Below are positions 36,152-47,570 of a stretch of DNA of 64,000 nucleotides, one piece after another. The translations under genes and the position numbers were made by a program. The notes below the pieces were generated by a model. That model searched no databases. It was not told the origin of the DNA and was given only the letters and a program-made list of their open reading frames with translations. Source of the stretch: Clostridiales bacterium. GTDB lineage: Bacteria > Bacillota > Clostridia > Saccharofermentanales > Saccharofermentanaceae. The stretch lies in the NCBI GenBank assembly GCA_017940895.1, contig JAGAXM010000033.1, positions 1 through 64,000 of the forward strand, in the 5' to 3' direction. Every line of letters begins with the position of its first letter. Position 1 is the first letter of the stretch.

Positions 36152-38572
36152 GTGAACATGGGAAAGAATAAAGGGAAGAAAAAGAAGTTCTTTGTACCGC
36201 TGCTGATACTTCTGATTATAGTAACGCTCATAATGCGTGCGGCGATTGTGTGGGGTCTTATGTATGCCGTTGATCAGTATACGACATCCAAGACCTCTTC
36301 CTCATCAAGATCATCACATTCGTCCAGAAGTTCGTCCGACAGGGATGACGGTGATGATGACGATGACGATGACGATGACAACGATTGGGGTAATCCTTCC
36401 GATCCTGCCGACATGGCCTCTTGGACCGTGCTCGTCTATATGTGCGGAACCGATCTTGAGACCCAAAACGGTTTCGGTTCGATGGCGTTCGACTGGATGA
36501 ATGATGAAGATATATCGGATGACATCAACATCATCGTTGAGACGGGCGGCACGCTTACGTGGAATAACGAAGATAATTACTTCTCGGATGACTCCGTAAA
36601 CGATGTTGATATTCCGGAAGATATGCTCGGAAGATTCCAGGTTAAGCAGGACGAGGTGATCGATCTCGGCGCCGTCTCACTGCAGTCGATGGGAAAGGCC
36701 GAGACGCTGTCCGACTTTATCTCATGGGGCGTACAGGAGTTTCCTGCCGAGCACTATATGTTCGTTATGTGGGATCACGGTTATTCCGAGCCTTACGGCA
36801 ATATGGAGCATGACGAGATCTTCTATGAGAATGGCAGTGGAAGCATCGTCAACGGCACAACCACCAATGTCGATACTAACGAATACTATAACGACTGTCT
36901 TACACTCGATGAGGTGTGCGAGGGCTTTGAAGACGGCGGTGCGCATTTCGACCTGATCGCATTTAATACGTGTCTGTCGGGTTCCATGGAGATCGCGTCT
37001 GCCATGGCACCTTACGCGGATTACATGGCGGCTTCGGAGGAGGTTATCCCCGCGATCATCGGTATCCCGATGGGTTATATCACGTATCTTTCAGAGAATC
37101 CGGACTGCACGGGCGAGGATGTCGGCAACGAGATCCTGTCACTGTACGAGAACGAGATCAACTCATATACCGCAGCGTATTCTTCCGATCAGGACGTGTC
37201 CGAGCTTTTCGCTGCGGGTACGATGTCGCTTATCAACCTGTCCTGTATGGAACAGATCGATGAGTTGATGGGGCAGTTCTGGCAGAGACTTTACTACACC
37301 ACATACAGTCAGGGCGAGTTCTCGTCCGTAATCAACATCGCATCAAAGTGCGAGAACTACGGTGCGGAAGGAAGCATGCCGGGCAACCTTATAGACTTCA
37401 GGGCGTTCCTTAACGACATAAGATCGGTGTTCTCAGATACTGACGTTGATGACGAACTGCTCGAGCTTCTTAATGACAATGTCGTAAGCGTATCGGGGCG
37501 CGCGAGAACTAATTCGTACGGCATGTCCGTATTTTTTCCCTCGGCTGTGTACCCGCAGGCTGTAAGAAGCTCTTACGAGTCGATGCTCAATACTTACGGT
37601 GTTGACTATACCGAGGATCAGATGCTCGAGATTCTGCATCAGCATATTGGTTTCTCTCTTAACGGCTATACAGACAATATCGACTTCATTGACGGCTACT
37701 ACTGGTATGCGGCGTTCCTGCAGGTAAGATTCTCGGATTACTGGACTGCGGATAATTCCGTGTGGAATGAGGTCAACAGCCATCTCGATCCTTCGTATCA
37801 GAACATGGTTCAGATAAGTTCCGAAAACCCTGAAGAGATCGAATACGAACTGACCTACGATGACCGCGGCAACATCATGCTCGACATCACTTCGGGGGCG
37901 GCTTCGGTGCTGTCCGTGGAGGCTAACGTATGTTATTACTACCCCTTCGATACGGGTGACTACTATACGCTGTTCGGATCAGAGCCCGTATATTCGAATC
38001 AGGGCAACGCCTCTTCTTATACATATAATCCGGACTGCCAGTGGCTGAACTTCTGCGATTACGATATCACCGTATATCCGCTCGAGGATACGGCTGATCA
38101 TACGATCTACGCGACGCCAGCTGATATCAACAGTGTGTGGTCGTTCATCTACATCTATTACGATAAGGCGACGGATGAGTATTCGCTGTTGTACTGCGCT
38201 TCGGTCGATCCCGAGAGCGGTGTCGCGACGAATGATATCTTCAACCTCGAGGAGGGCGATGAGGTCGAGTTCCTGTATTACTCGGTAGCTGAGAATATAG
38301 GATACGAAACTGTGCTCCTCATAAGACCTCTGTTCGATTCGTTTACCTATGACGGCTCGCTTAATATCAACCGCGGCAATATGTTCGGTACGGGCGGTTC
38401 AGATAAGGTAATCCTCGTGAACTTCCTTATCAGAGACAGCTTCGGTAATATCACCGATACTGCCGCTGTCGAGATCACATACGGCTCTAATAACGAGGTC
38501 GTAAATGTTACCGATGCCGAGGGTTATATCGACTACACGAACCTCTACGAAGTAACGTCCGCCGATTTCTGA
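36152..38572 (+). CDS. Clostripain-family (C11) cysteine protease, membrane-anchored
   Basis: 806 residues (GTG 36152; the ATG at 36158 is also possible, GGAAGG lies upstream of both). A lysine-rich N-terminus, one TM helix (about 13-35), a Ser-rich then Asp-rich linker encoded by tandem GATGAC repeats near 36346-36378, and the caspase-like C11 domain: SWTVLVYMCGTDLE near residue 90, catalytic His in MWDHGYSEPYG near 207 and catalytic Cys in AFNTCLSGSMEIA near 272. A long C-terminal beta-rich region follows. C11 enzymes cleave after basic residues, often after autoprocessing. Likely a surface-exposed protease. Confidence 0.82.
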   Translation: MNMGKNKGKKKKFFVPLLILLIIVTLIMRAAIVWGLMYAVDQYTTSKTSSSSRSSHSSRSSSDRDDGDDDDDDDDDNDWGNPSDPADMASWTVLVYMCGTDLETQNGFGSMAFDWMNDEDISDDINIIVETGGTLTWNNEDNYFSDDSVNDVDIPEDMLGRFQVKQDEVIDLGAVSLQSMGKAETLSDFISWGVQEFPAEHYMFVMWDHGYSEPYGNMEHDEIFYENGSGSIVNGTTTNVDTNEYYNDCLTLDEVCEGFEDGGAHFDLIAFNTCLSGSMEIASAMAPYADYMAASEEVIPAIIGIPMGYITYLSENPDCTGEDVGNEILSLYENEINSYTAAYSSDQDVSELFAAGTMSLINLSCMEQIDELMGQFWQRLYYTTYSQGEFSSVINIASKCENYGAEGSMPGNLIDFRAFLNDIRSVFSDTDVDDELLELLNDNVVSVSGRARTNSYGMSVFFPSAVYPQAVRSSYESMLNTYGVDYTEDQMLEILHQHIGFSLNGYTDNIDFIDGYYWYAAFLQVRFSDYWTADNSVWNEVNSHLDPSYQNMVQISSENPEEIEYELTYDDRGNIMLDITSGAASVLSVEANVCYYYPFDTGDYYTLFGSEPVYSNQGNASSYTYNPDCQWLNFCDYDITVYPLEDTADHTIYATPADINSVWSFIYIYYDKATDEYSLLYCASVDPESGVATNDIFNLEEGDEVEFLYYSVAENIGYETVLLIRPLFDSFTYDGSLNINRGNMFGTGGSDKVILVNFLIRDSFGNITDTAAVEITYGSNNEVVNVTDAEGYIDYTNLYEVTSADF

Positions 38573-38579
38573 TGATCCT

Positions 38580-39389
38580 ATGATCGATCTTAAATATCCG
38601 GTTCTGTTGGTCCACGGGATGGGTTTCCGTGACCGTAAACACTTGGGTTACTGGGGGCGCATACCGCGCGTCCTTGAAGAGCTCGGAGTGAAGATCTACT
38701 ACGGCGGTCAGGACAGCAGCGGTTCGATAGAGGGCAACGGCGAGTTTCTTGCGGACAGGATACGTAAGCTTTGTGCCGAGCATAATATCGAGAAGTTCAA
38801 TGTGATCGCGCATTCGAAGGGCGGACTTGATATCCGATATGCGATCTCAAGTCTAGGCATGGGTCCGCACATCGCAAGTGTCACTACCATCAACACGCCG
38901 CACAACGGTTCCTATACCGTGGATAAACTGTTGAAGTTTCCTGCGTGCATAGTGCGGTTCGGATGCGTGTTCGCGGATTGGTGGTTCAGGCTTCTCGGGG
39001 ATAAGAACCCGAGGACATATGCGGCGATACGAAGCTTTAGAACTTACGACTCGCAGGAGTTCAACCGCATGAACCCGGATGATCCTTCCGTGTATTATCA
39101 AAGCTATGCATTCACGTGCAAGCGCGTCACGGGCGACATGCTGCTGTTTATAAGCAATATCGTTGTGCGTGCGATAGAAGGCGAGAACGACGGATTGCTC
39201 ACCCCGCGTGCGGTAAAGTGGGCGAATTTCCGAGGGCACTTAAGAAGCGCCGGCAACAGAGGCATCTCACACTGCGATGAAGTTGATATGAGAAGACGTC
39301 CCCTCTCTAAGAAGAAAGGGGACGGGATCTCGGATATAACTGATTTTTACTGCGATGTGGTTAAAGAGCTCGCGCAGATGGGGTATTAG
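38580..39389 (+). CDS. Lipase-like alpha/beta hydrolase
   Basis: 269 residues: YPVLLVHGMGFRDRKHLGYWGRI (oxyanion region, residues 7-28), then KFNVIAHSKGGLDIRYA with nucleophile Ser near residue 81 in A-H-S-K-G, and TTINTPHNGS near 100, the pattern of bacterial triacylglycerol lipases and PGAP1-like hydrolases. The catalytic Asp is probably in EGENDGLLT and the His in RGISHCDEVD. No signal peptide. It is closely related to the C-terminal part of the convergent gene that follows, and their stop codons overlap by 4 nt. Confidence 0.8.
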   Translation: MIDLKYPVLLVHGMGFRDRKHLGYWGRIPRVLEELGVKIYYGGQDSSGSIEGNGEFLADRIRKLCAEHNIEKFNVIAHSKGGLDIRYAISSLGMGPHIASVTTINTPHNGSYTVDKLLKFPACIVRFGCVFADWWFRLLGDKNPRTYAAIRSFRTYDSQEFNRMNPDDPSVYYQSYAFTCKRVTGDMLLFISNIVVRAIEGENDGLLTPRAVKWANFRGHLRSAGNRGISHCDEVDMRRRPLSKKKGDGISDITDFYCDVVKELAQMGY

Positions 39390-40714
39390 AATCCTTTCTG
39401 CTTAAGACCGCTTACAAGCTCGACATACGTTTCTCTTACATCAAAACCGTCGATGTTCTCTCGCATCAGGTCGATCATGTCGCCATGGGTAATGCCTCTG
39501 GACTTGCGGGGTGTGACATATGTAAAGTCCGCGCCCCACTTCATGGAAGGCAGCGCCACGAGACCGTCATTGGGACCGTCGAAATAATTAACAAGATGAT
39601 ATGACAGATTAAGAGGGAATCTTCCGCTCGCGGCTCTTACTGACTTGGAGCCTATGCTCTGGTAGTATACGCCGTCGACGTCGGGGCAGCGCTCGTTGAA
39701 AGTTTTCGCTGCGTCGTGCGTAAGATCCGTGACGGCTGCGATGAAGTCGGGGTTCTTGTCGCCGAGCTTGCGAAGTGCCGCGTTGTACTTGGAAGCGACC
39801 GCGTTCTTAAGACCCTCCGGAGCCTTGCCGAGAAGATAGTCGGCGAACTGGCAGCCCCTGTGAGGAGTGTTTACAGTTGTGAGTGAAGCGACGTACGGTG
39901 CCGCGCCGTAGAGCGTGATCGCGGCTCTCGAGTCGAGACCGCCCTTGGAGTGAGCGATGATGTTTACTTTGCCGCAGCCCGTCTCATCTACGATCTCTTT
40001 GATCCTTGCTGCGATATGCTTGCCGCAGTCGTCTATGGAAGCGGCGGATTCCTGGTTGCCGTAGTAGATGCGTGCGCCGTTCTTCTCGAGGTCGGCCGGT
40101 ACACGTCCCCAGTAATTAAAGCTTCTTAAGTCTCTGAAGAAGACGCCGTGTACCATGAGAAGAGGGTACTTGGTGTCGCATATAAGATCGCCGGCGCGCT
40201 TCTCGTTAAGATAGTATCTCGAGCTCTCGTCGGTATATTCGCGGTATGTAAGCTTGATTATGTATCCGAGTGCGATAAGGTGAGCGATGGGGATCATGCC
40301 GCAGAAGATGCCGATGAGTCTCCACTTAAGACCGATCTGCTTGGATGTGATGTAGACGCGGATGATGCCGTCCCAGAAAACCAGGTTGCCGACGACGATG
40401 TCGATGATGACCGTCGCTATTACCGCGGAACTGTCGAAGTCCCAGCCGCCCATGATGAGAAATGCGGTAAGGAAAGCCGCATCGGCGACGCAGGTAATAA
40501 GGAATTCTATGAGAAGTGCCGTACCGCGCTGTGTGTTGCGAAGACCTTTGAGCGGGAACTTCTTGAATGAAGGAACGATAAGGAAGAATATCGTCAGGAT
40601 CGAGAGTACCGCATACGAAGGGATAAGGATAGATGCTTCGGGATCGATCCCCGCCATGTCGAGGATAAGAAGCAGATTAGATATCAGTATGAATACAAGT
40701 GTAGCAAGGATCAT
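39386..40714 (-). CDS. Membrane-anchored lipase-like alpha/beta hydrolase
   Basis: 442 residues. Five or so N-terminal TM helices (to about residue 165), then a cytoplasm- or surface-facing hydrolase domain: YPLLMVHGVFFRDLRSFNYWGRV near 188, KVNIIAHSKGGLDSRAA near 253, TTVNTPHRGC near 278, PNDGLVAL near 385 and RGITHGDMIDL near 410. The hydrolase half aligns block for block with the 269-residue protein encoded on the opposite strand next door, so the pair is an inverted duplication, one copy fused to a membrane domain. Its start overlaps the upstream hydrolase gene by 4 nt. Confidence 0.78.
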   Translation of the reverse strand: MILATLVFILISNLLLILDMAGIDPEASILIPSYAVLSILTIFFLIVPSFKKFPLKGLRNTQRGTALLIEFLITCVADAAFLTAFLIMGGWDFDSSAVIATVIIDIVVGNLVFWDGIIRVYITSKQIGLKWRLIGIFCGMIPIAHLIALGYIIKLTYREYTDESSRYYLNEKRAGDLICDTKYPLLMVHGVFFRDLRSFNYWGRVPADLEKNGARIYYGNQESAASIDDCGKHIAARIKEIVDETGCGKVNIIAHSKGGLDSRAAITLYGAAPYVASLTTVNTPHRGCQFADYLLGKAPEGLKNAVASKYNAALRKLGDKNPDFIAAVTDLTHDAAKTFNERCPDVDGVYYQSIGSKSVRAASGRFPLNLSYHLVNYFDGPNDGLVALPSMKWGADFTYVTPRKSRGITHGDMIDLMRENIDGFDVRETYVELVSGLKQKGF

Positions 40715-41541
40715 CTTAAGAAAAACTCCGTCATTCTGTCTCTGTAGTCGGGTGCGAGGTCATAGACCGCGTGACCGTAGCCGTTATACATATAAAGCTC
40801 GCAGTCGGGGTGCGAGCTCAAAGCTTCGTAAATTGCTTCTGATGCTTCTCCGCCCAAGACCTGATCGTCCTCGGAACCCAATACCAGGACGGGACATGAA
40901 ATCTCTCCAATGCGGGCGCTCACGTCGAACCCGTCGATGGATCCTGCTAGGATGACAAAGCGGTCCAGATCCTCCTGTGTTACGCCTGCCGCACTCTGAA
41001 TGAGAAGGTCTCTTGACTGCTCATAGACTTCTGGCGGGTAGAGGGCTTCACCGAATGCGAGGTAAAGACTCTCGGCGTCACCTTCGGCGGCAAGTTCAAC
41101 CCAGCCGGAAATGACATCATCGTAGTGCTCCTGATCTACCGCAGCTGCCGTGGAGCCCAGGATGAGTTTGCTAACAAGATCCGGATGATCAAGTGCGATC
41201 ACCAGGGAGATCATGCCGCCCTGGGAAGCTCCGAACAGATAGATGTCTGAAAGTCCAAGTTCGCTTATGGCTGCCGCAGTATCGTCCGCCATGTCCTGAA
41301 TGGAGTAGGCGGCAGGAAGATCCTTCCTTCTGTCGAACAGGTATATCGTGAAGTCGTCTGTCATCTGAGCGTAAGCGCCTGCGACCGCTTCGAAATACTT
41401 CATGACACTGTCTACGCTTAGCCCCGGGATGATGACCATGGTCTTATCACCATGACCGAACTTCATATAATCCATGGAGAAATCATCTGCGGTTACCGTG
41501 CCTAATACAACACCGTTGTTCATCTGGATCGTTACCTCCAT
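40711..41541 (-). CDS. Alpha/beta hydrolase
   Basis: 276 residues, a complete single-domain alpha/beta hydrolase: TMVIIPGLSVDS near residue 34, nucleophile elbow LFGASQGGMISL (Ser near 108), acid in VLVLGSEDDQVLGG near 222 and His in NGYGHAVYDL near 260. Comparable proteins include esterases and C-C hydrolases; the substrate cannot be told. First gene of a leftward pair with the membrane-anchored lipase-like gene. A Shine-Dalgarno-like GGAGG is lacking; the start context is weak. Confidence 0.82.
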   Translation of the reverse strand: MEVTIQMNNGVVLGTVTADDFSMDYMKFGHGDKTMVIIPGLSVDSVMKYFEAVAGAYAQMTDDFTIYLFDRRKDLPAAYSIQDMADDTAAAISELGLSDIYLFGASQGGMISLVIALDHPDLVSKLILGSTAAAVDQEHYDDVISGWVELAAEGDAESLYLAFGEALYPPEVYEQSRDLLIQSAAGVTQEDLDRFVILAGSIDGFDVSARIGEISCPVLVLGSEDDQVLGGEASEAIYEALSSHPDCELYMYNGYGHAVYDLAPDYRDRMTEFFLR

Positions 41542-41595
41542 TCTATCCTTTATTCAGTGATTATTATAATACATCTGAGTGTTAATTATATTTAA

Positions 41596-41624
41596 TTGAC
41601 GAACATGGGTGTAAAAGGTATAAT
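41596..41624 (+). promoter_or_regulatory. Consensus promoter of the structured RNA
   Basis: TTGACG (41596-41601), exactly 17-nt spacer, TATAAT (41619-41624); one mismatch from consensus, among the best promoters in the window. Predicted start about 41631, more than 300 nt before the first gene of the polyamine operon. Confidence 0.85.
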
Positions 41625-41630
41625 TCCCGT

Positions 41631-41950
41631 GTTTTATAGACGATGTTTATCAGAGTCTAAAGTAATTTTACGGACCACTCCCATGCGGAGTTGAGGCCAC
41701 GGACAGCCGGGTCCACTGCCGATGATCGGTTCTTCCGATCTATTGATTGAGTTAAAAGCTCAGTTTTATAAGTTGGTTACTTTATAACCGAAATGCGTAA
41801 TTAGCGCAGACTTGTGAAATGGTCAATAAGAGTAGTAAAAGTAGTATTACTATATAGGCTCTGGATACCGGATTATCATTATTTGATGACCGACAGAATA
41901 TAATTGAACCATACGCAAGTTGTGAGATTACACAGCTTGCGTTTTTGCTT
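41631..41950 (+). ncRNA. Highly structured non-coding RNA or leader before the polyamine operon
   Basis: No rightward ORF occupies this stretch. A long-range helix pairs 41648-41659 and 41661-41666 with 41846-41851 and 41855-41867 (about 18 bp, G-T pairs and a bulge included). Inside it are local hairpins: 41677-41681/41687-41691, 41701-41704/41711-41714, 41724-41729/41735-41740, 41748-41751/41759-41762, 41775-41779/41785-41789 and 41794-41797/41805-41808. A further stem lies at 41869-41892, and an intrinsic terminator at 41913-41950. It has its own near-consensus promoter. It could be an independent regulatory RNA or a riboswitch-type attenuator for polyamine genes. It does not match the cores I know for lysine, SAM, T-box, guanidine, RNase P, SRP or tmRNA. 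Rfam comparison, including raiA and 6S, was not possible. Confidence 0.65.
41913..41950 (+). terminator. Intrinsic terminator or attenuator directly before the decarboxylase gene
   Basis: ACGCAAGTTGTG (41913-41924) pairs with CACAGCTTGCGT (41931-41942), one G-T pair, loop AGATTA, followed by TTTTTGCTTT. GAGGTGAAC and the ATG at 41962 follow at once, so the stem either ends the upstream RNA or controls readthrough into the polyamine operon. A TATAAT at 41899-41904 could provide a separate start. Confidence 0.85.
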
Positions 41951-41961
41951 TGAGGTGAACT

Positions 41962-43416
41962 ATGGAAAGAACAGAATTGGATCAGACAAGGGCTCCGATC
42001 TACGAGGCTCTCGAGAGATTCCGCGAGATGCGTGTCGTGCCTTTCGACGTGCCGGGACATAAGCACGGCAAGGGTAACCCCGAGCTTACTGCTTTTCTCG
42101 GCGAGAAGTGCGTCGGCGTTGACGTAAACAGCATGAAGCCTCTCGATAATCTCTGCCATCCCGTGTCGGTAATACACGAGGCGGAGCTTCTTGCTGCAGA
42201 TGCTTTCGGCGCGAAGCATGCGTTCCTCATGGTAGGCGGCACGACAAGCTCGGTTCAGAGCATGGTTCTTTCCTGCTGCAAACAGGGCGATAAGATCATT
42301 CTCCCCCGTAACGTGCACAGAAGCGTTATCAATTCTCTGGTACTGTGCGGCGCGATCCCGGTTTACGTTAACCCCGATGTTGACAGAAGACTCGGTATCT
42401 CGCTCGGCATGAACCGCGATCAGGTTAAGAAGGCGATCGATGAAAATCCCGATGCGGTTGCGGTTCTGGTTAATAATCCTACTTACTACGGTATCTGCAG
42501 CGATATAAGAGCTATCGTAAAGATGGCGCACGACGCGGGCATGCTGTGCCTTGCCGACGAGGCTCACGGAACGCATTTTTATTTCGGCGAGAATATGCCT
42601 GTGTCTGCCATGCGCGCAGGTGCCGACATGGCTGCCGTATCTATGCACAAAAGCGGCGGAAGCTTAACGCAGTCGAGCCTCCTTCTTATCGGCGAGAATG
42701 TAAGTGAAGGACACGTAAGACAGATCATCAATCTTACGCAGACGACATCGGGAAGTTATCTTCTCATGTCGAGCCTTGACATAAGCAGAAGAAACCTCGC
42801 ATTAAGAGGAAAGGAAGTCTTCCGCAAGGTTATCGAGATGGCAGAATACGCAAGGGAAGAGGTTAACGCGATCGGAGGCTATTATGCTTACGGACGCGAG
42901 ATGATAAACGGCGATTCGATCTTCGACTTCGACCCCACGAAGCTCAGTGTCCACACAAGGGATATCGGTCTTGCGGGCATCGAGGTTTACGACATCTTAA
43001 GAGACGAATACGACATTCAGATCGAGTTCGGTGATATCGGAAATATCCTCGCATATCTTTCGATCGGTGACAGAATGCAGGAGCTCGAGCGTCTTGTAAG
43101 TGCGCTCGCCGAGATACGCAGAAGATACAAGAAAAATCCCGACGGCCTCATGACGCAGGAGTACATAGATCCCGAGGTCGTATGCAGTCCGCAGAAGGCT
43201 TTCTATTCCAACAAGAAGAGCGTTCCGCTTAAGGACAGTGCGGGAGAGGTCTGCAGTGAGTTCGTAATGTGTTATCCGCCCGGAATCCCGATCCTGGCTC
43301 CCGGTGAGAGAATCACTGAAGCCATCCTCGAGTACATAAGCTACGCGAAGGCCAAGGGCTGTTCCATGACAGGTCCCGAGGATCCGGACATCAACAACAT
43401 CAACATTCTGGTATAA
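41962..43416 (+). CDS. speA: Arginine/ornithine/lysine decarboxylase, fold I (short form)
   Basis: 484 residues, the short aspartate-aminotransferase-fold decarboxylase found in Firmicutes (SpeA/YaaO type), PLP-dependent. Seen: FDVPGHKHGKGNP near residue 29, the substrate and PLP region GGTTSSVQSM near 91, LADEAHGTHF near 195 (Asp contacting PLP) and SMHKSGGSLTQSS near 229 with the Schiff-base Lys. It produces agmatine from arginine, or a diamine from lysine or ornithine; the agmatinase gene in the same operon favours arginine. GAGGTG lies 7-8 nt before the ATG, just after the terminator stem. Confidence 0.88.
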   Translation: MERTELDQTRAPIYEALERFREMRVVPFDVPGHKHGKGNPELTAFLGEKCVGVDVNSMKPLDNLCHPVSVIHEAELLAADAFGAKHAFLMVGGTTSSVQSMVLSCCKQGDKIILPRNVHRSVINSLVLCGAIPVYVNPDVDRRLGISLGMNRDQVKKAIDENPDAVAVLVNNPTYYGICSDIRAIVKMAHDAGMLCLADEAHGTHFYFGENMPVSAMRAGADMAAVSMHKSGGSLTQSSLLLIGENVSEGHVRQIINLTQTTSGSYLLMSSLDISRRNLALRGKEVFRKVIEMAEYAREEVNAIGGYYAYGREMINGDSIFDFDPTKLSVHTRDIGLAGIEVYDILRDEYDIQIEFGDIGNILAYLSIGDRMQELERLVSALAEIRRRYKKNPDGLMTQEYIDPEVVCSPQKAFYSNKKSVPLKDSAGEVCSEFVMCYPPGIPILAPGERITEAILEYISYAKAKGCSMTGPEDPDINNINILV

Positions 43417-43428
43417 GGAGGATAACGG

Positions 43429-44283
43429 ATGAATCTTTGGTTCAGCGAATACCATGCACCTGACGTAAGACACAGCATTCGTGTCACAAGACACCTTTAT
43501 TCGGGCAAGAGCGATTATCAGCAGATCGATATCTTCGATACTCCCGAGTTCGGTAAGGTGCTGGCGCTTGACGGTAACGTAATGCTCACGGAGCGCGACG
43601 AGTTTATCTACGACGAGATGATCACGCACATCCCGATGTCCGTTCATCCGAACGTCCAGGATATTCTTGTTATAGGCGCGGGAGACGGAGGTGTCGTTAA
43701 GGAGCTCACAAGATACGAGAGCGTTAAGAGGATCGACCTCGTTGAGATGGACGACAAGGTTATCGAAGCGTGCCGCACATATCTTCCCGAGAACGCCTGC
43801 AAGCTCGACGACTCAAGAGTTCATATCTACTACGATAATGCACTCCGTTTCATAAGAAGAAGTTCCGACGAATACGACCTCATTATCGTTGATTCCAACG
43901 ATCCGTTCGGACCTTCCGAGGGGTACTTCACAAGAGAGTTCTACGGCATCTGCTACAACGCTTTAAGAAGCGACGGAATCATGGTAAACCAGCAGGGAAG
44001 CCCCTTCTACAAGCACGACGCGGAAGCGATGCAAAGAAGTCACAAGAGGATCGTAAACACCTTCCCGATAAGCCGCGTATATCAGGCACACATTCCGACC
44101 TACGCCGCGGGTTACTGGCTCTTCGGCTTCGCGAGCAAGAAGTATCACCCCATCGAGGACTTCGACGAAGAGAGGTGGAAGAAATTGCACTTAAGCACCA
44201 AGTACTACACAACAAAACTTCATGTGGGTTCTTTCTATCTTCCCGCATACCTCGAAAAGATGCTTATGGAGGTTGAATCGTGA
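43429..44283 (+). CDS. speE: Spermidine synthase (polyamine aminopropyltransferase)
   Basis: 284 residues. N-terminal beta domain and a Rossmann methyltransferase-like core: VIGAGDGGVVKELTRY near residue 82, LVEMDDKVIEACR near 104 and the DSNDPFGPSEGYFT catalytic loop near 160, where SpeE has DSTDP-type sequence. The enzyme moves the aminopropyl group of decarboxylated S-adenosylmethionine to putrescine. No speD (AdoMet decarboxylase) is present in the operon, so its donor must come from elsewhere. AAGGAGGATAAC precedes the ATG. Overlaps the agmatinase gene by 4 nt. Confidence 0.9.
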   Translation: MNLWFSEYHAPDVRHSIRVTRHLYSGKSDYQQIDIFDTPEFGKVLALDGNVMLTERDEFIYDEMITHIPMSVHPNVQDILVIGAGDGGVVKELTRYESVKRIDLVEMDDKVIEACRTYLPENACKLDDSRVHIYYDNALRFIRRSSDEYDLIIVDSNDPFGPSEGYFTREFYGICYNALRSDGIMVNQQGSPFYKHDAEAMQRSHKRIVNTFPISRVYQAHIPTYAAGYWLFGFASKKYHPIEDFDEERWKKLHLSTKYYTTKLHVGSFYLPAYLEKMLMEVES

Positions 44284-45134
44284 ACAAGAATGTAGAGACG
44301 TTTATCGGCTGCGACAGCGGGTATAACGAATCAAAAATCGTGCTCTGGGGTGCGCCTTTTGATTCCACGACGAGCTTTCGTCCGGGAGCAAGATTCGGAA
44401 GCGCGGCGATCCGCCATGAAAGCTTCGGAATAGAAACATACAGTCCTTATCAGGACAAGGATCTTACCGATATCAAAGTGTTCGACTGCGGCGATCTCGA
44501 ACTGTGCTTCGGTTCATCCGAATCGGCGCTTAATGACATCGAAGAGCAGACAGAGAAGATCTTAAATGACGGCAAGCTTCCGATCATGATCGGAGGCGAG
44601 CATCTCGTAACCTACGGCGCGGTGAAGGCTGTGTTTAAGAAGTATCCTGAACTCCGGATAATCCACTTCGATGCGCATGCTGACTTAAGAGACGATTACC
44701 TCGGTGTGAAGCTCAGCCACGCTTGTGTCTTGAGAAGGTGCCACGGTCTTGTGGGTGACGGCAAGATCCACCAGTTCTGCATAAGAAGCGGTGAGAGGGA
44801 TGAGTTTAAGTTTGCTGCCTCCCACACTGATATGCACAAGTTTAATTTCGACGGGCTTAAGGAAGTGTGTGAGGAACTTTCCAAGAACAACACACCCGTG
44901 TACTTCACGATCGATCTTGACTGTCTTGATCTGTCCGTGTTCTGCGGAACGGGTACACCGGAGGCAGGCGGAGTTAATTTTGCGCAGCTTCTTGATGCGA
45001 TCCTTACGGTAAGCAAGACGAACATCGTGGGCGCGGATGTGAACGAGCTTGCACCCATGCTTGATGCAAGCGGCGCTTCAACAGCAGTTGCCTGCAAAGT
45101 ATTAAGAGAATTGATCCTTTCAATCAACACATAA
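44280..45134 (+). CDS. speB: Agmatinase-type ureohydrolase
   Basis: 284 residues of the arginase/agmatinase family. GTG start at 44280 overlaps the speE stop. Binuclear manganese ligands: GGEHLVTYG near residue 105, HFDAHADLRDDYLG near 128 and TIDLDCLDLSVFCGTGTPEAGG near 215. Converts agmatine to putrescine and urea; in a carboxyaminopropylagmatine-type route a member of this family acts at a later step instead. Placement between speE and the carboxyspermidine genes supports a polyamine role. Confidence 0.88.
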   Translation: MNKNVETFIGCDSGYNESKIVLWGAPFDSTTSFRPGARFGSAAIRHESFGIETYSPYQDKDLTDIKVFDCGDLELCFGSSESALNDIEEQTEKILNDGKLPIMIGGEHLVTYGAVKAVFKKYPELRIIHFDAHADLRDDYLGVKLSHACVLRRCHGLVGDGKIHQFCIRSGERDEFKFAASHTDMHKFNFDGLKEVCEELSKNNTPVYFTIDLDCLDLSVFCGTGTPEAGGVNFAQLLDAILTVSKTNIVGADVNELAPMLDASGASTAVACKVLRELILSINT

Positions 45135-45150
45135 TAAGGGGGATAAGAAC

Positions 45151-46410
45151 ATGAGCAGAGTATTGGTGATCGGATGCGGCGGTGTCGCGAATGTAGCGAT
45201 CAGAAAGTGCTGTCAGGTGGACGATGTGTTCACCGAGCTTTGCATCGCAAGCAGAACAAAGTCAAAGTGCGACGCACTCGCAGAAGCACTTAAGGGGAAG
45301 ACGAGGACAGTCATCACAACGGCGCAGGTTGATGCAGATAATGTTGATGAGCTGGTCGCGCTTATCAATTCATACAGGCCCGATCTTGTCATGAATATCG
45401 CGCTTCCTTATCAGGACCTTACGATAATGGATGCGTGCCTCATCTGCGGCGTTAACTACATGGATACCGCTAACTACGAGCCTGAGGATACAGATGACCC
45501 TGAGTGGCGTGCGATCTATGATAAGAGATGTAAGGAGCAGGGTTTCTCTGCTTACTTTGATTACAGCTGGCAGTGGGCGTACAAGGAGAAGTTCGAGAAG
45601 GCAGGGCTTACGGCACTTCTCGGCTGCGGCTTCGACCCCGGAGTAACCCAGGCTTACTGCGCTTATGCGAAGAAGCACGAGTTCGATGAGATCGATACGA
45701 TCGACATTCTCGACTGCAACGGCGGCGACCACGGCTATGCTTTTGCCACCAACTTCAACCCCGAAGTAAATCTTCGTGAGGTCTCCGCTCCCGGAAGCTA
45801 CATCGAGAACGGCAAGTGGGTAGAGATCCCCGCCATGAGTATCAAGCGTGAGTACAACTTCGACTCCGTAGGACAGAAGGACATGTATCTTCTTCACCAC
45901 GAGGAGCTCGAGTCTCTTGCCGTAAACATCCCTGAGGTTAAGAGGATACGTTTCTTCATGACATTCGGACAAAGCTATCTTACACACATGAAGTGTCTCG
46001 AGAATGTCGGCATGCTTTCCACGGTTCCCGTTAACTTCGAAGGACACGAGATCGTTCCCATCAAGTTCCTCAAGGAGCTTCTCCCTGATCCTGTAAGCCT
46101 CGGTCCCCGCACACACGGCAAGACCAACATCGGCTGCATCTTCACGGGTAAGAAGGACGGCAAGGAAAAGACATACTACATCTACAATGTATGCGATCAC
46201 CAGGAGTGCTACAAGGAAGTTGAGAGCCAGGCTATAAGCTACACAACAGGCGTACCCGCAATGTGCGGCGCTCTCATGCTTCTTACGGGCAAGTGGACAG
46301 ATAAGGGCGTTCACACTGTAGAAGAATTCGATCCGGATCCGTTCCTTGATGCACTCGATAAGCACGGACTTCCGAGAAGAGAGAACTTCAATCCCGTACT
46401 GGTAGAGTGA
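45151..46410 (+). CDS. Carboxy(nor)spermidine dehydrogenase (saccharopine dehydrogenase family)
   Basis: 419 residues: NADP-binding Rossmann start VLVIGCGGVANVAIRKCCQ at residue 4, GCGFDPGVTQAYCAYA near 163 and LDCNGGDHGYAFATNFNPE near 188, as in carboxynorspermidine/carboxyspermidine dehydrogenases. It condenses aspartate semialdehyde with a diamine (or with agmatine in the CAPA pathway) and reduces the product. AAGGGGGAT precedes the ATG. Adjacent to its usual partner decarboxylase. Which amine it prefers cannot be read from sequence. Confidence 0.88.
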   Translation: MSRVLVIGCGGVANVAIRKCCQVDDVFTELCIASRTKSKCDALAEALKGKTRTVITTAQVDADNVDELVALINSYRPDLVMNIALPYQDLTIMDACLICGVNYMDTANYEPEDTDDPEWRAIYDKRCKEQGFSAYFDYSWQWAYKEKFEKAGLTALLGCGFDPGVTQAYCAYAKKHEFDEIDTIDILDCNGGDHGYAFATNFNPEVNLREVSAPGSYIENGKWVEIPAMSIKREYNFDSVGQKDMYLLHHEELESLAVNIPEVKRIRFFMTFGQSYLTHMKCLENVGMLSTVPVNFEGHEIVPIKFLKELLPDPVSLGPRTHGKTNIGCIFTGKKDGKEKTYYIYNVCDHQECYKEVESQAISYTTGVPAMCGALMLLTGKWTDKGVHTVEEFDPDPFLDALDKHGLPRRENFNPVLVE

Positions 46411-47570
46411 TTAATATGAACGGCATCTTCGACGGCTTAAAAACACCCTGCTATGTGATAGACGAGGCTAAGCTTCTTAAGAATGCTGAAGTGCTCGCTT
46501 CGGTCATGTCCCACACAGGTTGCAAGATCCTGCTCGCACAGAAAGCGTTCTCGAATTACGACTTCTATCCTTTGCTGTCAGGTTACCTTGCAGGCACTGA
46601 GGCGAGCGGCCTTTATGAAGCGCGGCTCGGCAAGGAAGAGATGCCTGAAGGTGAGGTGCACGTCTTCTGCGGGGCGTACCGCGATGATGAATTCGATGAG
46701 CTTCTGAAGTACGCGGATCACATCGTATTTAACTCGATACATCAGCTTGCTAAGTTCGGTCGTAAGGCTGAGAGTGCAGGCAAGAGTGTAGGTCTTCGTA
46801 TCAATCCCGAGTGCTCCACTCAGGAAGGTCATGAGATCTACGATCCGTGCGCGCGTGGAAGCCGCCTGGGGGTGACCAGAAGCGTGTGGGATAAGGAGAT
46901 GACGCCAAAGCTTCTCGAGCTTCTGGATGGGCTTCATTTCCATACCCTCTGCGAGCAGAATTCGGATGCGCTTGAAGTGACGGTACGTGCAGTGGAGGAG
47001 AAGTTCGGTGACGTCCTTCCCCGCATGAAGTGGCTTAACATGGGCGGCGGTCATCACATCACGAAGCCTGATTACGATGTTAATAAGCTCGAACAGATTC
47101 TTATTGATACGAAGACGAAGTGGGGTGTACAGGTATATCTTGAGCCCGGAGAAGCGGTGGCGCTTAATGCGGGATATCTGCTTACACACGTGCTCGATGT
47201 CGTAGAGAATCAGGACGTGAAGATCGCGATCCTTGATGCGAGTGCGGCGTGCCACATGCCGGATGTCATCGAGATGCCGTACACGCCGCCTCTGAGGGGC
47301 GCAGACAGCAAAGATACCAAACCATACCGTTACAGACTCGGAGGCCCTACATGCCTCTCAGGTGACGTTATAGGGGATTATAGTTTTGATAACGAATTGA
47401 AGGAAGGCGACCTTCTCGTGTTCGAGGACATGGCGATCTATACCACGTGCAAGAACAACACATTTAACGGAATGCCGCTTCCTGATATCTACAGACTTAA
47501 AGCAGACGGCTCAACAGAGAAGTTAACGAACTTCGGCTACGGGGACTTCAAGCACCGCCTCGGAAGCTGA
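46407..47570 (+). CDS. nspC: Carboxynorspermidine decarboxylase
   Basis: 387 residues, alanine-racemase-fold PLP decarboxylase. The N-terminus LKTPCYVIDEAKLLKNAE and Schiff-base Lys in ILLAQKAFSNYDF near residue 44 fit NspC; phosphate and active-site motifs are LNMGGGHHIT near 213, EPGEAVALNAGYL near 251 and the dimer-interface PTCLSGDVIGDY near 317. It decarboxylates carboxy(nor)spermidine to the triamine, the last step of the SpeD-independent route. The GTG at 46407 overlaps the upstream stop; the ATG at 46416 is an alternative start. Last gene of the operon. Confidence 0.9.
   Translation: MINMNGIFDGLKTPCYVIDEAKLLKNAEVLASVMSHTGCKILLAQKAFSNYDFYPLLSGYLAGTEASGLYEARLGKEEMPEGEVHVFCGAYRDDEFDELLKYADHIVFNSIHQLAKFGRKAESAGKSVGLRINPECSTQEGHEIYDPCARGSRLGVTRSVWDKEMTPKLLELLDGLHFHTLCEQNSDALEVTVRAVEEKFGDVLPRMKWLNMGGGHHITKPDYDVNKLEQILIDTKTKWGVQVYLEPGEAVALNAGYLLTHVLDVVENQDVKIAILDASAACHMPDVIEMPYTPPLRGADSKDTKPYRYRLGGPTCLSGDVIGDYSFDNELKEGDLLVFEDMAIYTTCKNNTFNGMPLPDIYRLKADGSTEKLTNFGYGDFKHRLGS

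Follow-up and report, generated by a model that had tools for sequence, protein, structure and literature searches.

We propose, at a probability of roughly 0.7, that positions 41596-41947 of the DNA analysed here form the 5' leader of a polyamine operon, speA-speE-speB-CASDH-nspC, and that this large leader acts in cis to attenuate transcription, most likely as a riboswitch for a polyamine (probably spermidine). The DNA, referred to as the window, is a 64,000-nucleotide stretch of contig JAGAXM010000033.1 from a Clostridiales bacterium; CASDH denotes carboxyspermidine dehydrogenase, in the window a carboxynorspermidine synthase-type enzyme. As a riboswitch candidate the RNA represents a new structural class, a 54-nt fragment of which is already catalogued. 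The full-text literature yielded no description of it as a structured class or a riboswitch, although an earlier one in subscription papers, preprints or supplements is possible.

A conserved RNA ahead of polyamine genes

Scanning the window against Rfam matched 41672-41722 to RF02440, 'Streptococcus sRNA SpF59 (ldcC RNA)' (58.3 bits, E 8.5e-9, gathering cut-off 37.2 bits), with all 54 positions of the family aligned end to end. By an initial annotation of this region, an Rfam match to some unrelated RNA would have spoken against its proposed structured RNA; the family matched is instead a fragment of the same RNA. Whole-window and permissive scans returned, besides RF02440, only a tRNA and chance matches, and the raiA or 6S identity once considered has no Rfam match in the window. 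T-box and other Rfam leader models gave no match in the window leader or in the six homologous loci scanned, and SAM-family models gave none at E up to 10 (window leader) or E up to 1 (the six loci).

With RF02440 as collector, loci were found in 49 of 115 genomes of the window's family and 35 of 291 of its class, and a DNA pattern search yielded 119 named loci. Named carriers are Faecalibacterium, Blautia, Gemmiger, Paenibacillus, Neobacillus, Bacillus testis, Lederbergia, Acidaminococcus and Phascolarctobacterium, with single spirochaete and synergistete metagenome-assembled genomes (MAGs) also among the carriers. In nearly all collected loci, conservation reaches far beyond the Rfam stretch. 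A covariance model of the leader core (R1) matched 100 of 100 chosen loci end to end, the 38 sequences used to build it being among them, and found members in 40 of 291 sampled genomes of the class, 37 of 399 of a Bacilli-like class, 13 of 299 of the phylum and two smaller classes. Its range includes Clostridia, Bacilli and Negativicutes. A genus that is probably Streptococcus, an assignment whose basis includes the pneumococcal reports discussed below, gave weaker matches over the full length, ahead of speA. Comparison of the homologues shows the RF02440 stretch to be one part of a longer conserved leader RNA, which measures about 190-230 nt without its terminator.

The gene that follows this RNA has a role in polyamine metabolism or uptake throughout. 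Five of the 168 distinct loci have less than 235 nt of DNA past the reference point; in the other 163, which are phylogenetically non-independent, tblastn identified the next same-strand gene as speA (67), speD (41), potA (35) or CASDH (20), and representatives were confirmed by NCBIfam. Inspection showed L120, L150, L155 and L166 to be polyamine loci as well, their polyamine gene having been obscured by frame shadows or by a P-II gene that precedes potA. The linkage is no product of the sampling: loci were gathered with an RNA or DNA pattern that took no account of genes. Longer loci carry operons of the form speA-speE-speB-CASDH-nspC, speD-speA-... or CASDH-nspC, and in the potA loci inspected potA is followed by potB and then a potC/potD-like gene. 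The initial annotation had expected relatives upstream of clostridial speA genes. The link to speA stands, but the framing was too narrow, as speD, potA and CASDH are linked too and Bacilli and Negativicutes also carry the RNA. The Rfam name, that of a Streptococcus small RNA gene, fits poorly: most matches lie outside Streptococcus, always as the leader of a polyamine gene.

Fold of the leader

The folding energy of 41625-41965 is -107.5 kcal/mol, whereas its dinucleotide-shuffled versions give -79.4 (sd 4.6; z -6.1, 0 of 100 as stable), in line with the early impression that so dense a set of stems was unlikely by chance. The helix of about 18 bp first noticed across about 190 nt is recovered as P1, which joins 41651-41671 to 41840s-41863 by 19 bp (9+6+4) in the minimum free energy (MFE) fold, its strands about 180-190 nt apart. 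The internal hairpins described at that stage are present too, although the conserved fold is more elaborate: a P2/P2a/P3 domain is followed by P5, which surrounds P6 and P7, and P7 in turn holds P8 and P9.

Comparison of homologues supports this fold. Thirty-eight divergent sequences were aligned with MAFFT, and from this alignment RNAalifold predicted P2, P2a, P5, P6, P7 and P10 without guidance. With the full hand-made structure imposed on the same alignment, 93.8% of cells pair and 97 carry double changes, against 29.6 in shuffled and at most 34 in slid controls. For 100 homologues aligned to the model, an alignment that is fitted to the structure as the MAFFT alignment is not, 94.6% of cells pair and 390 carry double changes (107.7, sd 16.7, shuffled; at most 61 slid). 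The closing pair of P2, for example, is U-A in 45, G-C in 27 and C-G in 16 of these 100 sequences, and double changes occur at four of four pairs in P6 and five of five in P8; about 97% of cells are paired in P5, about 99% in P6 and 97.8% in P7. P1 lies outside the R1 model and was tested by swapping 5' flanks between species. Own pairing averaged -21.4 kcal/mol and swapped pairing -15.9 (sd 0.32), with no permutation as low. On these comparisons the conserved fold is supported by covariation, and the long helix P1 co-evolves.

Two local choices had to be made. The alternative CGG/CCG pairing that RNAalifold offered for P3 is broken in L049 and L052, where GGC/GCC turns into GCC/GGC, and the GGC/GCC hairpin was therefore preferred. 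P10 (AGAGU/ACUCU) never varies, whereas P1 co-evolves, and the putative Streptococcus genus has CCUAUUCU/AGAGUAGG in place of the usual P1 strands (L224, by eye); for these reasons P1 is preferred, although P1 and P10 could form in turn. Near-invariant unpaired bases comprise CACGGACA (P3 loop CGGACA), GCCGA and AGAGU, and resemble those seen in ligand-binding RNAs. Both CGGACA and GCCGA (41718-41722) are invariant. A pseudoknot between CGG (41700-41702) and CCG (41719-41721) is possible, its invariant strands placing it outside the reach of covariation.

A further explanation is leader-peptide attenuation, in which translation of a short open reading frame (ORF) in the leader would decide termination. 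The window's genus has a potential 12-codon ORF, AUGGUCAAUAAGAGUAGUAAAAGUAGUAUU..UAG, and ATG occupies that place in 59 loci. However, 69 loci have ACG there and the rest other triplets, so the start codon is not conserved, indels shift the frame between species, and the stretch belongs to conserved helices; no ribosome-binding site was noted by eye. This explanation, already disfavoured, is extremely improbable.

Terminator and predicted antiterminator

The initial annotation placed a terminator 10 nt before the ribosome site of the decarboxylase gene, and it is there, 9-10 nt before the GAGGUG (41952) of speA (start 41962). Among homologous loci, 134 of 146 have a strong terminator within 160 nt of the RNA, compared with 6 of 137 and 4 of 133 control segments. 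The TTGACG-17-TATAAT promoter proposed at the other end also holds up and recurs in homologues: a promoter-like site (at least 9/12) lies at the corresponding place in 126 of 144 loci, compared with 18 of 132 in a control stretch. Transcription would be expected to start near 41631.

The 5' arm of the terminator has its complement in the strand formed by the 3' side of P9 and the start of P7', and arm and strand co-evolve. Own arms pair at -13.95 kcal/mol, swapped arms at -11.88 (sd 0.19) and shuffled arms at -6.82, with 0 of 20000 permutations as low; in 59 divergent loci the values are -13.7 for own and -10.8 (sd 0.32) for swapped arms. The signal is significant in the speA, speD and potA sets taken separately. 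When the leader was scanned blindly, the best partner of the arm fell at P9'/P7' in 41 of the 59 divergent loci, compared with 5.2 expected. An antiterminator of this kind predicts transcription attenuation. Given the complementarity of the arm with P9'/P7', the folded sensor and the antiterminator would be mutually exclusive, as is usual in OFF switches that attenuate transcription. The strong conservation of the P7 strand ACUUGUG is probably explained by its need to pair with two partners.

In the mechanism we envisage, plentiful ligand would stabilize the sensor domain P1-P9 and P9 and P7 would remain closed. The arm (41916-41924) would then be partnerless, the terminator (41913-41942) would form and transcription would end after about 316 nt. 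With scarce ligand, GCGCAGACUUG (41804-41814, the 3' side of P9/P7) would pair with the arm CAAGUUGUG, the terminator would be blocked and the operon would be read through.

Termination would leave a stable leader transcript of about 316 nt, and this is apparently what is seen in pneumococcus. Between its genes SP_0915 and SP_0916, Streptococcus pneumoniae has a reported RNA of 318-327 nt that goes by the names SN20 (318 nt), srn235, F59 and Spd_sr49 (PMC2887815, PMC3395615, PMC12323649), and the name of the RF02440 family follows such pneumococcal small-RNA surveys. In the accessible portions of these reports it is a small-RNA candidate, presented without structure, ligand or attenuation mechanism. 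That annotation implies an independent trans-acting RNA, placed before the operon by chance and with leaky read-through. Its own promoter and terminator would suit such an RNA, as would a transposon fitness effect of 0.05 in mouse lung, although the latter may be polar on the operon. Trans action, however, does not need a position that is always the leader of a polyamine gene (163/163), and an antiterminator is meaningful only for read-through. From -10 box to U-tract we find about 316 nt in the window, 326 nt in the putative Streptococcus homologue L257 and 293 in L260. Because the first two of these lengths are close to 318-327 nt, the pneumococcal small RNA is probably the terminated leader, the 326-nt span from promoter to terminator in the related leader being its counterpart. 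We consider a trans-acting RNA improbable. The initial annotation had left the choice between an independent RNA with read-through and an attenuating sensor of the polyamine pathway; gene linkage, terminator, co-evolving antiterminator and covariation strongly support the second and make the first less likely.

Cis-attenuation, well supported as such, would equally accommodate a protein-dependent switch, in which an RNA-binding protein carries the polyamine signal as PyrR does for pyr leaders. The conserved loops could serve as protein sites, and PyrR-type control is known from the same bacteria (PMC6296669). Against this, the RNA far exceeds known protein-binding attenuators in size and in the intricacy of its conservation, and a protein partner would have to be as widespread as an RNA that spans Clostridia, Bacilli and Negativicutes, whereas none is linked to the loci. 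We rate a protein sensor as rather unlikely.

Several observations count against a polyamine riboswitch that works by attenuation. Twelve of the 146 loci, all of speD or potA type, have no strong terminator, and none is visible by eye in the spirochaete MAG locus L103; not every carrier therefore shares the output stage. The CASDH set, whose loci are near-identical, shows no significant arm co-evolution on its own (200 of 5000 permutations as good). Neither the P3-loop pseudoknot nor P10 gains support from covariation, both being invariant. The sensor could be a protein or another RNA, and polyamines bind RNA unspecifically, so that a response in vitro would itself call for caution.

Ligand, known relatives and surroundings

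Two features expected of a riboswitch were found: a conserved structured RNA in the 5' untranslated region of functionally related genes and, computationally, an expression platform (terminator plus co-evolving antiterminator) coupled to the sensor domain. Direct ligand binding, an OFF direction and the identity of the ligand are inferred. Spermidine is the probable ligand because it is the only compound shared by all four linked gene types (speA, speD, CASDH-nspC and potABCD), as product or cargo; putrescine is a substrate. A riboswitch for another compound (putrescine, agmatine, decarboxylated S-adenosylmethionine (SAM), methylthioadenosine, arginine or lysine) overlaps with the favoured explanation, in which spermidine is the probable ligand. 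The linked genes touch these compounds too, and the study of the SAM-I-variant riboswitch likewise had methylthioadenosine to rule out (PMC10853860). Yet arginine, lysine or agmatine would leave speD, potA and CASDH unexplained, and decarboxylated SAM or methylthioadenosine would leave CASDH, speA and potA unexplained. Repression by putrescine would be illogical, as it is the substrate of the speD and CASDH routes. Another ligand than spermidine is thus unlikely, if still a possibility to keep in view.

The closest functional parallel to a spermidine-sensing leader is the SAM-I-variant spermidine riboswitch, found in the leaders of speE, speB, speD and ldcC genes (PMC10853860); if our reading holds, the two share an antiterminator/terminator OFF switch. 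That riboswitch has a variant SAM-I aptamer, whereas the RNA described here differs in size and fold, is linked to potA and CASDH and, since no SAM-I model matches it, does not belong to that family. RF02440 is the same RNA, and its Streptococcus member likewise precedes a decarboxylase gene (SP_0916), but in Rfam it is represented by the P2/P2a/P3 piece alone, entered under the heading of a Streptococcus small RNA gene, whereas the full RNA is distributed across Bacillota and has the behaviour of a cis-acting leader. The ABC-leader of potABCD in Haemophilus and Pasteurella is also a proposed attenuator of a polyamine transporter operon (PMC2965389), but is gammaproteobacterial. The odc1 and potE motifs are further candidate RNA elements of polyamine genes, set apart from this RNA by their descriptions: odc1 is a control element around an upstream ORF and potE is restricted to Veillonella (PMC8632094).

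We see roughly even chances that this RNA constitutes a large class of riboswitches that respond to spermidine or a different polyamine, share no structural relationship with the SAM-I variant, are much more widespread than it and serve as the general polyamine feedback sensor of many Bacillota. If so, one sensor class would control synthesis (speA, speD and CASDH operons) and uptake (potABCD) alike, in bacteria whose polyamine sensing is largely open; the authors of the 2023 study held that more polyamine riboswitch classes are surely still to be found (PMC10853860). The candidate is a strong one: its fold is sharply delimited, a switch helix is predicted, and it is common in gut Clostridia, in Paenibacillus, in relatives of Bacillus and apparently in Streptococcus. 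On this reading a pneumococcal 'small RNA' that strongly affects fitness in the lung would become a regulatory region acting in cis. The RNA also illustrates that an Rfam family can be one piece of a far larger and wider class.

Some homologues depart from the common form. The window's own genus has a strongly diverged copy upstream of speA (L262, 424-600; 29 bits), in which CGGACG replaces the invariant CGGACA; changed ligand specificity or decay is possible. The potA-type loci L047, L048 and L051 have an additional hairpin in the P4 region and a shorter P5'-P1' stretch than the speA and speD types. In L103 (3374-3620) the copy precedes speD, and the short distance from RNA to ribosome site may point to translational control. 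In L120, the RNA and potA are separated by a gene for a P-II nitrogen regulatory protein (PF00543), located some 190-590 nt past the reference point of the RNA, which hints at a link between polyamine uptake and nitrogen control.

Features of the leader and its operon in the window (P, helix; all on the forward strand)
Feature	Position	Strand	Evidence
Sigma-70-type promoter TTGACG-17-TATAAT	41596-41624	+	11/12 consensus matches
P1 5' strands CAGAGUCUA (41651-41659) and AGUAAU (41661-41666)	41651-41666	+	paired with 41846-41863 in MFE fold
Conserved leader core (166-position covariance model R1)	41672-41833	+	157.3 bits, E 1.4e-42
5' domain: P2 41672-41676/41710-41714, P2a 41677-41681/41687-41691, P3 41695-41697/41706-41708	41672-41722	+	covariation in P2, P2a and P3
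P4 hairpin	41724-41740	+	double changes at 5/5 modelled pairs, 100 homologues
P5: UAUUGAUU (41741-41748) with GGUCAAUA (41821-41828), around P6 hairpin (41749-41761) and P7 domain	41741-41828	+	
P7: UUUUAUAAGU (41764-41773) with ACUUGUGAAA (41810-41819), around P8 (41775-41789) and P9 (41794-41808)	41764-41819	+	
Predicted antiterminator partner GCGCAGACUUG, 3' side of P9 plus start of P7'	41804-41814	+	complementary to 41916-41924, one bulged base
AGAGU, near-invariant; local pairing with P1 3' strand possible (P10)	41829-41833	+	at least 95% identical in 100 homologues
P1 3' strands AUUACU (41846-41851) and UAGGCUCUG (41855-41863)	41846-41863	+	MFE fold, swap test
Intrinsic terminator, 12-bp stem (41913-41942) and U-tract	41913-41947	+	-17.9 kcal/mol, z -5.5
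Predicted antiterminator arm CAAGUUGUG (terminator 5' arm)	41916-41924	+	
speA ribosome-binding site GAGGUG	41952-41957	+	sequence
speA-type Orn/Lys/Arg decarboxylase, first gene of the operon	41962-43416	+	PF01276, E 3.3e-70
Remaining operon: speE (43429), speB agmatinase (44280), CASDH (45151), nspC decarboxylase (46407)	43429-47570	+	

The leader lies in an intergenic region (41542-41961) between a leftward alpha/beta hydrolase gene and the rightward polyamine operon. Among the operon proteins, speE, agmatinase and nspC score above their NCBIfam cut-offs; the CASDH matches carboxynorspermidine synthase at E 1.4e-121, yet under the equivalog cut-off. In its part at 43429-47570 (+ strand) the operon carries two complete final routes to spermidine, speE and CASDH-nspC, and its gene order is found again in 13 of the longer homologous loci. 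About 1 kb past its end is an IS110-family transposase gene (PF01548 and PF02371; 48644-49804, + strand); IS110-type elements have a bridge RNA in their flank. On the other side, a clostripain-family peptidase (PF03415) with a long Asp-rich stretch is encoded at 36152-38572 (+ strand), beside several alpha/beta hydrolase genes (38580-41541).
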